In this document: positions 55,308-61,172 of the stretch, piece by piece
Position numbering within the stretch: the first letter of the stretch is position 1
Layout of the letters: every line of letters starts with the position of its first letter
Origin: Aquificota bacterium
Lineage (GTDB): Bacteria; Aquificota; Aquificia; Aquificales; Hydrogenothermaceae
Assembly (NCBI GenBank): GCA_013153635.1
Contig: JAADDZ010000015.1
Span: 62,001 to 126,000 of the forward strand
DNA length: 64,000 nucleotides
Direction of reading: 5' to 3'
Made by a program: the position numbers and the translations under genes
The notes under the pieces: model-generated
Seen by the model: the letters and a program-made list of their open reading frames with translations, nothing else
The model's database searches: none
Told to the model about the DNA's origin: nothing

Positions 55308-55802
55308 ATGAAAACCTTTACTTATTTTGCTTACTTTTTAATACTGTTACTCTTTGCTCCTTCTTTTGCACAAAAGAAAGCTCCCTATTTTGAACTTTTT
55401 GATGAAGATGGAAATACTGTAAAAAGCCATTCCTTAAAAGGTCAACCTACAGTTCTTGTTTTTTGGGGTATTAACTGCTCTAGCTGTAGAGAAGACCTTC
55501 CTAAAATGGAAATTCTGTACCAAAAATATAAGGAAAAGAATATCCGTTTTTTTGCTATCGTTATGGATAGCAGTTCCATAGATGAGATTAAAAAAAGGAA
55601 GATTCAGTGGAATTTTACTATTCCTGTTCTTATCGGGAACAAAAAAATCATGTATAAGTATAGAATAATAGGTGTCCCTATTACCTATATCCTTGATAAG
55701 GATATGAAAATTAAAAAGGTGCTATACGGAGTACAGCCTGTACAAAAAATAGAAAAAATCCTTTTACAGTTGTTAAAAAATGAAAAAACAGCTAAAAATT
55801 GA
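55308..55802 (+). CDS. Exported thioredoxin-like (TlpA/ResA) protein
   Basis: A 164-residue periplasmic thiol-disulfide oxidoreductase-like protein. A signal peptide covers about 1-21 (ending SFAQ), and a thioredoxin fold follows with active site CSSC in FWGINCSSCREDLPKM and the cis-Pro element GVPITYILDKD. TlpA/ResA-type proteins reduce apocytochrome c or other periplasmic thiols. AAAGGG lies upstream. The last codons contain the -35 element of the flgL promoter. Confidence 0.88.
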   Translation: MKTFTYFAYFLILLLFAPSFAQKKAPYFELFDEDGNTVKSHSLKGQPTVLVFWGINCSSCREDLPKMEILYQKYKEKNIRFFAIVMDSSSIDEIKKRKIQWNFTIPVLIGNKKIMYKYRIIGVPITYILDKDMKIKKVLYGVQPVQKIEKILLQLLKNEKTAKN

Positions 55803-55853: not shown

Positions 55854-56795
55854 ATGAGAATCCCAGATATAGCTTTTTTTGATACTTTTATAAAGTACGA
55901 CCGACTAAAAGAAAAAGATATTAAAAAGTTTACCCAGCAACTTGCATCTGGGAAAAAGATTCTTACTCCTTCTGATAATACAGTAGATACTGTTAGGTCT
56001 TTGAGGCTTTCCAATATCGCTGACGACTTAAATGTGTACAGAAAAAATATAGATATTGTCAAATCTACTCTAGAGATTGCTGAAGATTCGTTAAGGTCTA
56101 CTGTAGATGCTATGCAGGAAACGAGAGTAGAGATTATTAGACTTCACAATACAGGTGTGCTTGACTATGAAGATGCACAGATAGTAAAAGATTTTTTAGA
56201 AGGTATGAGAGATTATGTTATTGATATGGCTAATGTAAAAGTAGGAGATTCCTATATATTTTCTGGAGTAAGAAATCAAATAACTCCTTTTGATTCTGCT
56301 GGAAATTACAGTGGAGCGGTAGAGGAGTCAAAAGTTTTTATATCAAAAGGTGTAGAAACCAGCAATAACTTTAGTGGAAAAGATTATTTTGGCGTTAATG
56401 AAATCACAAACAAAATAACGGTAGTAGAAGTGATAGACCAGATTATTAGTATAATTGATAGCGGTGATTTATCCCAGATTCATAACAGAACCATAAATCT
56501 ATCTATAGGTGGAAAATCCTATGGAGATGTAAAACTCTTAGAAGCTTTCGATATTGGTCTTTCTGAACTGATGAAGTACCAATCAAAAATCGGCTCTGAT
56601 GTAAACGTTATTGATAACATATATCAGCAACATCTACAGATAGAAGTTAATGTTAAAAATCTCCAATCAAAATTAGAAGACGCCGACTATGCATATGCTA
56701 TATCAGAACTAGAAAAAGCAAAAACGTCTTATCAAGCTTTGCTTTCATCTATCGCTCAAAATAAAGACCTTAGTTTGCTAAATTTTATTAGTTAG
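55854..56795 (+). CDS. flgL: Flagellar hook-associated protein FlgL (HAP3)
   Basis: A 313-residue hook-filament junction protein. The N-terminus MRIPDIAFFDTFIKYDRLKEKDIKKFTQQLASGKKILTP-like region matches FlgL/flagellin (start of the D0/D1 coils), with SLRLSNIADDL and the C-terminal YAYAISELEKAKTSYQALLSSIAQ. The ATG at 55854 gives the conserved MRI start; a GTG 12 bases before is the alternative. flgK is not adjacent. Its end overlaps the convergent kinase gene by eight bases. Confidence 0.9.
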   Translation: MRIPDIAFFDTFIKYDRLKEKDIKKFTQQLASGKKILTPSDNTVDTVRSLRLSNIADDLNVYRKNIDIVKSTLEIAEDSLRSTVDAMQETRVEIIRLHNTGVLDYEDAQIVKDFLEGMRDYVIDMANVKVGDSYIFSGVRNQITPFDSAGNYSGAVEESKVFISKGVETSNNFSGKDYFGVNEITNKITVVEVIDQIISIIDSGDLSQIHNRTINLSIGGKSYGDVKLLEAFDIGLSELMKYQSKIGSDVNVIDNIYQQHLQIEVNVKNLQSKLEDADYAYAISELEKAKTSYQALLSSIAQNKDLSLLNFIS

Positions 56796-58371
56796 AGTTT
56801 AGTTTTATCTCTATAATAAACCTTGTTCCTTTGTTATTGCTGTCTAAATTTATACTCCAACCGTGACTGTACACTATTTTGTAAACGATAGGTAATCCTA
56901 ATCCTGTACCTTTTGTTTTGGTGGAGAAAAACGGCTTAAATATTTTGTCTTTTATCTCTTCTGGAATACCTGTTCCAGAATCTTCAAAGGTTATTCTTAT
57001 TATTTTACTGTTCTGTTTTTCTATTAGTTTTGTCTGGATTTTAAATACCTTAGGTGGCTCTTTTTTTTCTCTAAGAGTATCTAATGCATTGATAGCAAGA
57101 TTAAGGATTATCTGTTTAAACAGATTTTTATCAAATTTTATTTTAGGTATATTAGTATCTAACTCTAATTGGAGCTGGATATTTTCATTTTTAAAATCAT
57201 CTTCTAACAGTTTTATACTTTCTTCTATCACAGAGTTTAGATTATGGTACTCAAATTTTGGCTCTATCAGTTTTGAAAAATTCAAGAAAGATACTGTTAT
57301 CTCGTTTAGCCTATTGACTTCGTTCCTGATAACAGTGGAAAATTCTTTTACCAAAGGGTTATTTACATTCCTTCTCATGTAATCAGCCGCGTTTCCTATA
57401 GCATATAGAGCATTTTTAATCTCGTGGGCTATCTTTGCACTCATCTCTCCCATACTTGCAAGACAGTTTAGAGTTTCCCTTTCTTTATATGCTTCTTCTA
57501 ACTTTTTTAAGTAATCTTGTAGGGAGGCTGTCATCATATAAAAGCTATACGTTAGCTCCTCTATCTCTCCTGACACAGAGTTTTTGTATTTTGGACAGTT
57601 TTGACACTCTCTTAAGGTTAGCTCTCCTAGCTCTTGCATGATTTTTGATGCATTTTCACTAGATAACCAACATTCTTCAGATATTCCCTTTGTACACTCT
57701 TTTGATAGTTTTGGTTTAAAAACTTTTTCTACTTTTAGGGGTTTATCTATGTTAGAGGCTAGATTTACTATCTTATCTTTTAGAACTTTGATAGGTCTAA
57801 TCATAATCCCAGAGATAACAAAAGTCCCTATAAAAGAAGCAAAAATCACAAAAAAGGATATGGATAGAGTTTGTATAGCGATTTTTAGAATATCAAAATC
57901 TACAGAAGCTTTTAAGATTTCTCTATCATATGAGGTTACTACGTACCCTATAGGGGTTGTTTCTACCGTAACTGGATAGAAATACTTGATTAGATTTTTA
58001 TTTTTTTCTAAAAAGGCTTCTTTTTTTTGACCAAATTTATCTAAAAGCTCCCGGGAAAACTTGCCAAGATTTCCAATATCAGAGTGTCCTATGATTCTAC
58101 CATCTATATCTAGAACTACTACTTCATCTATTGATTCTAAAGATGAGATAGTTTTTACCATCTCGTCGATTTTTTCTAGATTCCTTACGATAAAAAAATC
58201 TTTATAACTCTCTATTATGTTTACTATACTTTTGACTGTATTTTTTTCTCTTTCTTTTAAAAGGTTCTTCTCAAAATTAGCTACAGCAAAAAGAATAGAG
58301 CCTACTAAGATTATCAATATATAAACAGAAGTTAAAAAAGCTATTTTCCATTGTATTGATAGATTTTTCAT
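56788..58371 (-). CDS. Membrane histidine kinase with cysteine-rich insert
   Basis: A 527-residue sensor kinase. Two transmembrane helices (about 11-33 and 165-190) enclose a roughly 130-residue periplasmic domain. After the second helix and a HAMP-like segment there is an insert with four cysteines (about 227, 235, 257, 260; EECW and CQNCPKY), then the H-box AHEIKN (His about 317) and catalytic motifs NLAINALD, DSGTGIP and GTGLGLP. The type is NtrB/ZraS-like, matching the sigma-54 response regulator divergently encoded nearby. The start shares one base with the upstream binding-protein stop (TGATG). The cysteine insert may bind an Fe-S cluster, haem or metal. Confidence 0.9.
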   Translation of the reverse strand: MKNLSIQWKIAFLTSVYILIILVGSILFAVANFEKNLLKEREKNTVKSIVNIIESYKDFFIVRNLEKIDEMVKTISSLESIDEVVVLDIDGRIIGHSDIGNLGKFSRELLDKFGQKKEAFLEKNKNLIKYFYPVTVETTPIGYVVTSYDREILKASVDFDILKIAIQTLSISFFVIFASFIGTFVISGIMIRPIKVLKDKIVNLASNIDKPLKVEKVFKPKLSKECTKGISEECWLSSENASKIMQELGELTLRECQNCPKYKNSVSGEIEELTYSFYMMTASLQDYLKKLEEAYKERETLNCLASMGEMSAKIAHEIKNALYAIGNAADYMRRNVNNPLVKEFSTVIRNEVNRLNEITVSFLNFSKLIEPKFEYHNLNSVIEESIKLLEDDFKNENIQLQLELDTNIPKIKFDKNLFKQIILNLAINALDTLREKKEPPKVFKIQTKLIEKQNSKIIRITFEDSGTGIPEEIKDKIFKPFFSTKTKGTGLGLPIVYKIVYSHGWSINLDSNNKGTRFIIEIKLNSN

Positions 58372-59183
58372 CACTTTAACATAGGATACTGATTTAGTAT
58401 AGATTTATAATCTTTCAAAATATCAAAAAGTCCCGCTGGTGGTGGAACAAAAGCATCTATCCCAAGCCTTTTTAACGTCTTTTCATCATTTAGGTGATAG
58501 AGAGATTTTACGATTTTTCTAAACTTTCTTTTTGGGAGATTCGTTGACAGATTTACTACATATCTTGGGACATATGGAGATTTGGCAAGGATTTTTATAC
58601 CTTTATCTAAAAACTTTAGAGCGCTTTCTTCTTTTACACCTGCCGCATCAGCTAGTCCTGCTATTACAGCTAAGATAGCCGCTTTATCTGAACCAGAACT
58701 CCACAAGTCTGGAATATCTTCATAAGTTATCCCTTCTTTACTCAAAACATAAAGAGGCATAACACAATTACTGGCACATATGGAACTTCCTAAAGTAACT
58801 CTTTTGTCTTTTAGGTCTTTTACCGTTTTTATATCACTATCTTTTCTTACTACTATTACTCCTGACTCTAAAATCTGCCCATTTATCTTTATTACAGCAA
58901 CAGCATTTATATCAAAACCTCTATCTTTTAACTCAAAATACACAATAGGACAGGTTATAGACATATCTATCTGCTCTTTCTCATAAAGGTATAAAAGCTG
59001 GTCAACTTTTGCTATGATTTTAAGCTCTACAGGCTCATTTATCCGTTTTGCTAGGTATTCTGATAGGTTTTTGAATCTTTTATACTCTTGGACTGGATTT
59101 CCAGCAGATAATATAGCTAAAGTAAAGGCGTATGATAATTTATAAAAAAGAATTAGAAAAAGAATGCTACTTCTTTCTACCAT
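58371..59183 (-). CDS. PhnD-like periplasmic binding protein, orphan
   Basis: A 270-residue solute-binding protein of the phosphate/phosphite/phosphonate-binding (PhnD) superfamily. After a signal peptide (about 1-25) the typical fold starts AILSAGNPVQEYKRFKNLSEYLA, with SGVIVVRKDSDIKTVKDLKDKRV. Where PhnD proteins have a ligand-binding Ser/Thr-rich loop (STSG), this one has CASNC with Cys136 and Cys140, so the ligand may differ. No ATPase or permease is adjacent; it is coupled to the kinase gene, so a sensory role is inferred. AAAGGAAAAG precedes the ATG. Confidence 0.85.
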   Translation of the reverse strand: MVERSSILFLILFYKLSYAFTLAILSAGNPVQEYKRFKNLSEYLAKRINEPVELKIIAKVDQLLYLYEKEQIDMSITCPIVYFELKDRGFDINAVAVIKINGQILESGVIVVRKDSDIKTVKDLKDKRVTLGSSICASNCVMPLYVLSKEGITYEDIPDLWSSGSDKAAILAVIAGLADAAGVKEESALKFLDKGIKILAKSPYVPRYVVNLSTNLPKRKFRKIVKSLYHLNDEKTLKRLGIDAFVPPPAGLFDILKDYKSILNQYPMLK

Positions 59184-59694
59184 ACTTTTCCTTTATCTTT
59201 TTAAAGTCGTGTACAATGGCAGGAACCAATCTATAACCTTGGTCTTGTAAGACAGCCAGTTTAGCTACTCCGGCAGGTGTAAGTATAACAAATGGAAGTA
59301 CATCTTCTTTTGAGTAACCTAGCGCTCTTATAGCGTTGTAGCATACATAAAACTTTATCCCATAACCTTTATTAAAAGATTTCATTCTAGCTATAACATC
59401 TTTGAATTTTTCAAAATTATCTTTAACGAAGATAGCCACTTCAGGACCGTGACTTACAACCACTATTTCTACCTCTTCAAAAGGAGAATATTCAGAATAA
59501 GCTTTTAGATGATTTGATATATAGTTTAGAGCTTGGTTTACTGCTTCTGGACTTTGTAGATTCCAGTCATAGACTACTTTTGTAGAAGGATACGTACTGT
59601 CTGAAATCTCCAAAACAGCTTCCTTCTGTTTTTCTTTCGCTAATGAGGACAAAACCAGTACTAACATAGCCAAAATTAAAAAATTTTTAAACAT
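59167..59694 (-). CDS. Exported DsrE-family protein
   Basis: A 175-residue protein with a signal peptide (about 1-19, cleavage after SSLA) and a DsrE-like domain: VVVSHGPEVAIFV, YGIKFYVCYNAIRALGYSKEDVLPFV with a single conserved Cys at about 108, and TPAGVAKLAVLQDQGYRLV. DsrE proteins handle sulfane sulfur, usually in the cytoplasm; the exported form is typical of periplasmic sulfur oxidation settings. The ATG at 59694 has GGAGGAAAG; upstream in-frame extension is intergenic. It overlaps the binding-protein gene by 17 bases. Confidence 0.85.
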   Translation of the reverse strand: MFKNFLILAMLVLVLSSLAKEKQKEAVLEISDSTYPSTKVVYDWNLQSPEAVNQALNYISNHLKAYSEYSPFEEVEIVVVSHGPEVAIFVKDNFEKFKDVIARMKSFNKGYGIKFYVCYNAIRALGYSKEDVLPFVILTPAGVAKLAVLQDQGYRLVPAIVHDFKKIKEKYGRKK

Positions 59695-59783
59695 CTCTTT
59701 CCTCCAGAGCCTTTTTGTTTTGGTGTTACAAAAATAATATATTCTGTCATTTAAAATAGCAAATAAGTTAGTATATTCAAACA

Positions 59784-59810
59784 TTGCAGTATATTTATTA
59801 TATTTATAAT
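59784..59810 (+). promoter_or_regulatory. Candidate sigma-70 promoter of the response regulator gene
   Basis: TTGCAG (59784-59789), 15 bases, TATAAT (59805-59810), 30 bases before the TTG start. Spacing is short, so confidence is low. I see no GG-N10-GC sigma-54 element in this 146-base region on either strand. Confidence 0.35.
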
Positions 59811-59840
59811 ATATAAGGGTAAATATCTGGAGGTTTTTCA

Positions 59841-61172
59841 TTGAAAAAAAGAATACTTTTGATAGATGATGAGAAAAGTATCAGAAAGGTTATAAAAACA
59901 ATACTAGAGAGTGAAGGATTTGAAGTAGACACAGCAAAAACTAAACAAGAAGCTATAAATCTTCTACAGAAAAAAGATTTTGACATAATCCTTTGTGATT
60001 ATAGACTTCCTGACGGAACAGGTATAGAGATTCTAGAGTTTTTTAGAAAGTTTAACACTGCTGTTCCTTTTATCATAATAACCGCTTACGGCTCTATCAA
60101 CGGAGCAGTTGAAGCTGTAAAAAAGGGAGCTACCCATTATGTAGCAAAACCTATAAATGCAGAAAATCTGATTCAGATGATAAATTTCCATATATCTAAA
60201 CAAGAAAGTGATGAGATAAAAGAAAATGAGTTTCACGGGATAATAGGTAAAAGCAAAAGAATGAAAGAGCTTTTTAGAGAAATATCCATTATCGCAAATA
60301 CAGAATCCTCTGTTCTGTTAGAAGGAGAAAGTGGAACAGGAAAAGAACTCATAGCAAAAGCAATACATAACTTGTCAAAAAGGAAAAAAAATCCGTTTAT
60401 TGCGATAAACTGCTCTGCTATACCTTTGGAATTATTTGAAAATGAACTATTTGGACATGAAAAAGGAGCTTTTACTGGAGCAGTATCAAAGAAAACAGGT
60501 AAATTTGAACTAGCAGGAGAAGGTACATTATTTTTAGATGAAATATCAGAGATGCCAATAATAATTCAGGCAAAACTACTTCGGGTACTTCAAGAGAAAG
60601 AGTTTTACAGACTAGGCGGAACAAAACTAGTATGTGTAAAATGTAGAGTTATATCAGCTACCAATAAAGATATAGAAAAAATGGTAGAAGAAGGTAGTTT
60701 TAGAGAGGATTTGTTCTATAGGATAAATGTGATACATATAAAGATTCCTCCTTTAAGAGAAAGGAAAGAAGACATTCCCCTATTAGCAAAACATTTTTTA
60801 GAGAAATTCAGTAAGATAAACCTAAAAGATATTCACCATATAGACTGCCAAGCTATGGAAGCATTAATAAACTACAACTGGCCGGGAAATGTAAGAGAGT
60901 TAGAAAATGCGATAGAAAGGGCGGTCGTTATGTGTACTTCTGATACAATTAAGTTAGAACACCTCCCAAGGAGAATCACTCATAGCCAAAAAGAAGATGA
61001 TTTTCAGTACATAAATTCCACGAATCTAAATGAGATAGAAAAAAAAGTTATTCTAAAAGTTCTAGAAGAAGAAAACTGGAATCAGACAAAATCAGCCAAA
61101 AGATTAGGTATCTCTAGAAAACAGCTTAGAACGAAGATGAAGAATCTAGGTATCTTTCCAAAAAGAGTTTAA
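59841..61172 (+). CDS. Sigma-54-activating response regulator (NtrC/ZraR family)
   Basis: A 443-residue regulator. The receiver domain (1-115) has the acidic pocket Asp9/Asp10, phospho-acceptor Asp53 (LCDYRLPDG) and Lys103. The AAA+ domain has Walker A GESGTGKE (about 162-169), the sigma-54-contact loop GAFTGA (209-214) and Walker B GTLFLDEI. A Fis-type helix-turn-helix ends the protein (NQTKSAKRLGISRKQLRTKMK). TTG start, 7 bases after GGAGG. It is divergent from the DsrE-binding protein-kinase operon and is its probable partner. The last four bases overlap cmk. Confidence 0.95.
   Translation: MKKRILLIDDEKSIRKVIKTILESEGFEVDTAKTKQEAINLLQKKDFDIILCDYRLPDGTGIEILEFFRKFNTAVPFIIITAYGSINGAVEAVKKGATHYVAKPINAENLIQMINFHISKQESDEIKENEFHGIIGKSKRMKELFREISIIANTESSVLLEGESGTGKELIAKAIHNLSKRKKNPFIAINCSAIPLELFENELFGHEKGAFTGAVSKKTGKFELAGEGTLFLDEISEMPIIIQAKLLRVLQEKEFYRLGGTKLVCVKCRVISATNKDIEKMVEEGSFREDLFYRINVIHIKIPPLRERKEDIPLLAKHFLEKFSKINLKDIHHIDCQAMEALINYNWPGNVRELENAIERAVVMCTSDTIKLEHLPRRITHSQKEDDFQYINSTNLNEIEKKVILKVLEEENWNQTKSAKRLGISRKQLRTKMKNLGIFPKRV

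Follow-up and report, generated by a model that had tools for sequence, protein, structure and literature searches.

Which signal is read, and which genes are switched, by a cluster that joins two exported proteins to a histidine kinase and a sigma-54 regulator? This question is raised by a four-gene locus in a 64,000-nt stretch of DNA (the window) from an Aquificota bacterium of the family Hydrogenothermaceae (GCA_013153635.1, contig JAADDZ010000015.1). The original prediction, made from the letters alone, proposed that the kinase is presented with a reactive sulfur species or related anion by the secreted pair and that the regulator switches sulfur-metabolism genes. Our analysis suggests that the four genes very probably sense the signal for, and switch, the operon of thiosulfate oxidation (sox). 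At the level of sequence, the gene set, its conservation, its linkage to sox, the site pairs and the promoter carry this proposal. The features of the locus are as follows.

56788..58374, minus strand: sensor histidine kinase (HisKA, E 2e-9; HATPase, E 3e-19)
58371..59183, minus strand: orphan PhnD-like periplasmic binding protein (Phosphonate-bd PF12974, E 3e-44)
59167..59694, minus strand: exported DsrE-family protein (PF02635, E 1e-11; signal-like N terminus)
59695..59840: divergent intergenic region of 146 bases, without an upstream activator sequence (UAS) palindrome
59841..61172, plus strand: sigma-54-dependent NtrC/AtoC-type response regulator, TspR-like (Response_reg; Sigma54_activat, E 5e-72; HTH_8; TTG start)

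Open reading frames and Pfam domains confirmed the four genes at these positions, with a coupled minus-strand trio and a divergent regulator. The DsrE and PhnD-like genes overlap by 17 bases, and the PhnD-like and kinase genes by 1 base if the kinase starts at the ATG at 58371 or by 4 bases if it starts at the GTG at 58374. Shine-Dalgarno sequences precede both divergent starts, on the DsrE side and on the regulator side, and hydrophobic signal-like segments are present at the N termini of the DsrE and PhnD-like proteins. No permease or ATPase was found near the four genes, in agreement with the earlier observation that the locus has no transporter components.

We compared the module across 41 Hydrogenothermaceae genomes (the family sample) and a wider sample of 136 Aquificota genomes. 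The PhnD-like protein, the kinase and the sigma-54 regulator are kept as a unit in about 25 of the 41 family genomes. When the 136 Aquificota genomes were searched, kinase orthologues were recovered from 27 genomes in eight genera, all of its own family, and orthologues of the PhnD-like protein from 26 genomes, almost entirely those bearing the kinase. In almost every genome the two genes are separated by -4 to +3 bases, and the recurrence of this spacing across most genera of the family argues that their coupling is not due to chance. In genera g5 and g9 the PhnD-like, kinase and regulator genes form one operon with overlapping genes, in which the regulator lies 3' of the kinase. A single-sequence scan of genome contigs returned only two close relatives and one distant one; the family-wide comparison of orthologues and synteny substantiated the expectation that the genes are co-conserved, within this hot-spring family of Aquificota.

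The neighborhood of the module points to its likely target. Regulator orthologues are 63-83% identical and many of them adjoin sox operons in the relatives; in six genera (g1, represented by genome G075, and g2, g5, g6, g7 and g9) the sox operon is adjoined by the module or, in some genomes, by the regulator. The operon in these relatives reads soxX, a thioredoxin-like gene, soxY, soxZ, soxA, soxB, a DUF302 gene and a porin gene, and SoxX, SoxY, SoxZ, SoxA and SoxB exceed the NCBIfam equivalog cut-offs. The window's own genome encodes a complete sox operon of the same order on contig C10. Of the 41 family genomes, 24 encode both the PhnD-like protein and SoxB, 11 encode neither and 6 encode only one of them (Fisher p = 3e-5, with relatedness ignored); several of the discordant genomes are incomplete. 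In genera g5 and g9, a porin-like gene, a small cytochrome-like gene and two flavoprotein (sulfide dehydrogenase-like) genes are located between the regulator and soxX (L035, 6742-11168).

The region upstream of soxX was analyzed for a sigma-54 promoter and for activator sites. A -24/-12 site, TGGCAYNNNNNTTGMW, was found within one mismatch upstream of soxX in 20 of 22 genomes, including the own genome, compared to a mean of 0.45 in shuffles, and the palindrome TGTYCYNNNNRGRACA occurs in 29 exact copies in the soxX upstream regions of these related genomes, compared to 0.015 in shuffles. Nearly all genomes with the soxX -24/-12 promoter also carry the palindromes, which are usually paired at a spacing of 21-23 or 32-33 bp. 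For TspR, which controls sox in Acidithiobacillus caldus as a sigma-54 regulator, the activator site has been published as TGTCCCAAATGGGACA (PMC6335251). In the own genome, TGTTCCAAATGGAACA forms the proximal site, and a second copy with one mismatch to the degenerate pattern lies 32 bp upstream; a segment-by-segment comparison of the own soxX region with its counterparts in six other genera showed the palindromes and the -24 element to be the best conserved segments. RpoN is encoded in the own genome.

Four other exact palindromes are present in the own genome, all within genes and none with a properly placed -24/-12 promoter, and the predicted regulon is therefore the sox operon, whose promoter was the only combination of palindrome and -24/-12 site found in this genome. 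The sox operon is thus well supported as the target by linkage, sites and promoter, giving the predicted switching of sulfur-metabolism genes a specific object. No UAS palindrome was found in the divergent intergenic region of the module (59695-59840), which makes it unlikely that the regulator switches its own module, and autoregulation through the palindrome was rejected. A separate occurrence of the TspR site was noted in genome G065 (L097, G065:C10:38523-38595), where an exact TGTCCCAAATGGGACA lies by flgL with a -24/-12 site about 40 bp off, antisense to flgL; flgL also adjoins the kinase gene in the window.

Two genomes that depart from the common pattern were informative. G101 has lost the PhnD-like protein, the kinase and the regulator, and a TnpB-type transposon gene (L071, G101:C10, 16386-18050) stands directly before its soxX in place of the sigma-54 promoter and activator sites; neither a palindrome nor a -24/-12 site was found before soxX in this genome. 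G069 has retained the regulator (67% identical) together with the palindromes and the promoter on contig C44, the end of which matches the start of the sox contig, and no orthologue of the PhnD-like protein or the kinase was found in G069. These exceptions indicate that the regulator-promoter pair is the core of the system and that the input side can change. G069 also carries a second PhnD-kinase-regulator set on another contig (L070, G069:C32, 5022-10376) that adjoins aioBA, arsB and arsC and is AioXSR-like; aioXSR has been listed from Alpha- and Betaproteobacteria only (PMC5908839).

Several points weigh against the assignment of the module to sox. The sox operon of the own genome is on a contig apart from that of the module, and the link is drawn from site identity and from the relatives. 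The genomes are related, so that the shuffle statistics overstate independence, a relatedness that the Fisher test also ignores. G069 retains the regulator and the sox sites without the PhnD-like protein and the kinase, and the switch therefore does not strictly require the periplasmic protein. Published accounts of TspS-TspR mention no PhnD-like or DsrE partner.

The signal itself was approached through the PhnD-like protein. It is the product of the only PhnD-like gene in the own genome, and none of the 41 family genomes encodes a PhnE-type permease above the family cut-off; we therefore regard it as an orphan and not as part of a transporter, as had been proposed, and a remnant of a phosphonate/phosphite transporter was rejected on the same family-wide permease count. 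A profile of its orthologues matched the phosphite binder PtxB best among PDB entries (5o2j, E 2e-26), followed by ArrX (4e-16) and AioX (6e-6), and its profile match to TtrS was marginal (E 0.04). Cys78 is located in a lobe-1 loop and aligns with a Cys of ArrX, and Cys136 lies in the anion-binding loop, where STSS of PtxB becomes CASN. Both residues are invariant in a 16-sequence alignment, and Cys140 is present in most sequences. The locus thus differs from PtxB in this loop and in having no ATP-binding cassette (ABC) permease, and from the PhnCDE/PtxABC transporters in the missing cognate permease. Plasmid matches were distant (about 25%) and uninformative on function. A predicted structure from four sequences had a predicted local distance difference test (pLDDT) score of 52 and was not used.

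The mechanism that we propose is as follows. The PhnD-like protein would bind a sulfur oxyanion in the periplasm, which we infer is most likely thiosulfate, and would dock on the kinase at its Cache-like periplasmic domain. This would lead the kinase to phosphorylate the divergently encoded sigma-54 regulator, which may bind the two TGTYCYNNNNRGRACA palindromes, two or three helical turns apart, and activate the -24/-12 promoter of soxX. Phosphotransfer from kinase to regulator and activation of sigma-54 promoters are established for these families. The exported DsrE protein may serve as a sulfane-sulfur carrier that feeds or reports Sox activity. We infer the binding, the phosphorylation, the identity of the ligand and the roles of the DsrE protein and of the kinase cysteines. 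A periplasmic relay is a more speculative and rather unlikely extension, in which sulfur that Sox turnover has loaded on DsrE would be transferred to, or would change, the Cys-lined pocket of the PhnD-like protein, such that the signal to the kinase would be the flux through Sox as well as the concentration of thiosulfate; if true, a two-component system would here be served by a sensor that works through covalent sulfur transfer.

Other signals and other sensors were weighed against this proposal. The PhnD-like protein could be orthologous to AioX/ArrX and sense arsenite or arsenate: the gene set is that of aioXSR, with a PhnD-like protein, a kinase and a sigma-54 AtoC-type regulator (PMC5908839), and the matches to ArrX and AioX and the lobe-1 Cys aligned with that of ArrX are in keeping with such a role. 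However, arsenic sensing is highly improbable, as the large subunit of arsenite oxidase is absent from the own genome and present in only 3 of the 41 family genomes, linkage and promoter sites point to sox, and the best PDB match is PtxB. The arsenic-linked set in G069 is also separate from the module; its regulator is only 40% identical, and the CASNC loop is missing from its PhnD-like protein, in which the lobe-1 Cys is present. The arsenic assignment was rejected on the absence of aioA here and on this separate set. Somewhat unlikely, by comparison, is the possibility that the kinase senses alone through a Cache domain, as proposed for TspS, with the PhnD-like protein only tuning the kinase or buffering the ligand. 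TspS has an sCache_3_2 domain and no described PhnD partner (PMC12194929), and G069 keeps the regulator and the sites without the PhnD-like protein. The window's kinase has two transmembrane segments, a periplasmic domain, a cytoplasmic linker and then HisKA and HATPase domains, and its periplasmic domain was confidently modelled as alpha/beta, and beyond it only part of the catalytic domain was modelled with confidence; weak sCache_3_2 matches were obtained for 3 of 15 kinase orthologues (best E 6e-4), with the window's kinase below the cut-off. Nevertheless, the PhnD-kinase coupling is strict wherever the kinase neighborhood is intact and the pocket cysteines are invariant, suggesting that the PhnD-like protein has an essential role.

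The kinase could also respond to a cytoplasmic or redox signal, with the periplasmic proteins secondary. Without exception, the kinases aligned across the family carry the residues C227, C235, C257, C260 and C304; all five are cytoplasmic and lie ahead of the histidine-kinase core or at its start (window 57460-57700), and they may form a metal, Fe-S or sulfur-reactive site, such as one for sulfane sulfur. We consider a primary role for this cluster improbable, as the linker has a pLDDT below 50 in the predicted structure, the kinase is linked to two exported proteins and the pocket cysteines of the PhnD-like protein are likewise invariant. No Pfam family matched the linker, no match to it was found on plasmids, and a fold search with the kinase model returned ordinary kinase cores. 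A further alternative concerns the DsrE protein only and is compatible with a sox-sensing module. In g5, g9 and G065 the 3'-terminal part of the sox operon, and not the neighborhood of PhnD, holds the DsrE genes, and the protein may therefore belong to the Sox pathway, or handle sulfur, outside the sensor. On the other side, the DsrE gene directly precedes the PhnD-like gene, adjoining or overlapping the PhnD-kinase pair, in g1, g3, g4, g6, g7 and three g2 genomes, and we consider it about as likely as not that DsrE stands outside the sensor. The original prediction was thus partly supported: the co-conservation, the orphan binding protein and a sulfur-related predicted target of the regulator stood, and joint presentation of reactive sulfur by the DsrE and PhnD-like proteins would be conjectural, given the sox location of DsrE in other genera. 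One Cys of the DsrE protein, in an FYVCYNA motif, is conserved in the alignment, at the active-site position typical of the DsrE/DsrF family. In g3 and g7 a second, shorter exported DsrE paralogue (L039, 10310-10780, and relatives) accompanies the first; in g5 and g9 it is part of the sox operon.

The locus is best read as a sox switch of the TspSR type to which a periplasmic co-sensor resembling AioX and an exported DsrE protein have been added. TspS-TspR of A. caldus (PMC6335251, PMC12194929) shares with it a kinase and a sigma-54 response regulator linked to sox, the activator site, a sigma-54 promoter before soxX, a regulator with receiver, AAA+ and helix-turn-helix domains and, as the weak matches may indicate, possibly a Cache-type periplasmic domain in the kinase; it belongs to another phylum, and the sites in Aquificota are mostly paired. 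This likeness is drawn from published descriptions of the A. caldus system. From AioX-AioS-AioR, ArxXSR and ArrXSR (PMC5908839) come the parallels of an orphan PhnD-like protein encoded with a kinase, of a sigma-54 AtoC-type regulator (Aio/Arx) and of the lobe-1 Cys (ArrX), but our locus is predicted to act on sox and not on arsenic enzymes, and it has an extra conserved Cys in the anion loop and an accessory DsrE protein. The analogy to TtrS in the original prediction was looser than those to AioX-AioS-AioR and TspS-TspR, neither of which it mentions. TtrS and the thiosulfate sensor ThsS (PMC5408782) also use a PhnD-like fold for thiosulfate or tetrathionate, but in those systems kinase and PhnD domain are one fusion protein and the regulator ThsR is FixJ-like, whereas here the protein is separate and the regulator depends on sigma-54. 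None of the outcomes named beforehand as counting against the prediction (genes not co-conserved, a transporter elsewhere, unrelated targets) was observed.

Sox sulfur oxidation is a main energy source for many Aquificota, and our literature search found no paper on Sox regulation in this phylum. The analysis provides a specific predicted regulon with named binding sites and suggests that one activator site is used in both Aquificota and Acidithiobacillia. The 2017 TspSR paper reportedly shows similar clusters in other chemolithotrophs, and the link between the regulator and sox may therefore not be wholly new in Aquificota. TspSR control of sox in Acidithiobacillus is already published, and the new part seems to be the exported PhnD-like and DsrE helpers on a TspSR-type regulator, a type so far known from acid-mine bacteria; no description of such partners of a sox regulator was found in the literature. 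Thiosulfate sensors are rare and useful (ThsS, PMC5408782), and the orphan thiosulfate-binding protein proposed here as a co-sensor would, if thermostable, be of practical interest. Near the module, the window also encodes a ResA/TlpA-like exported thioredoxin (55308-55802), which is not conserved in the neighborhoods of the relatives that were examined.

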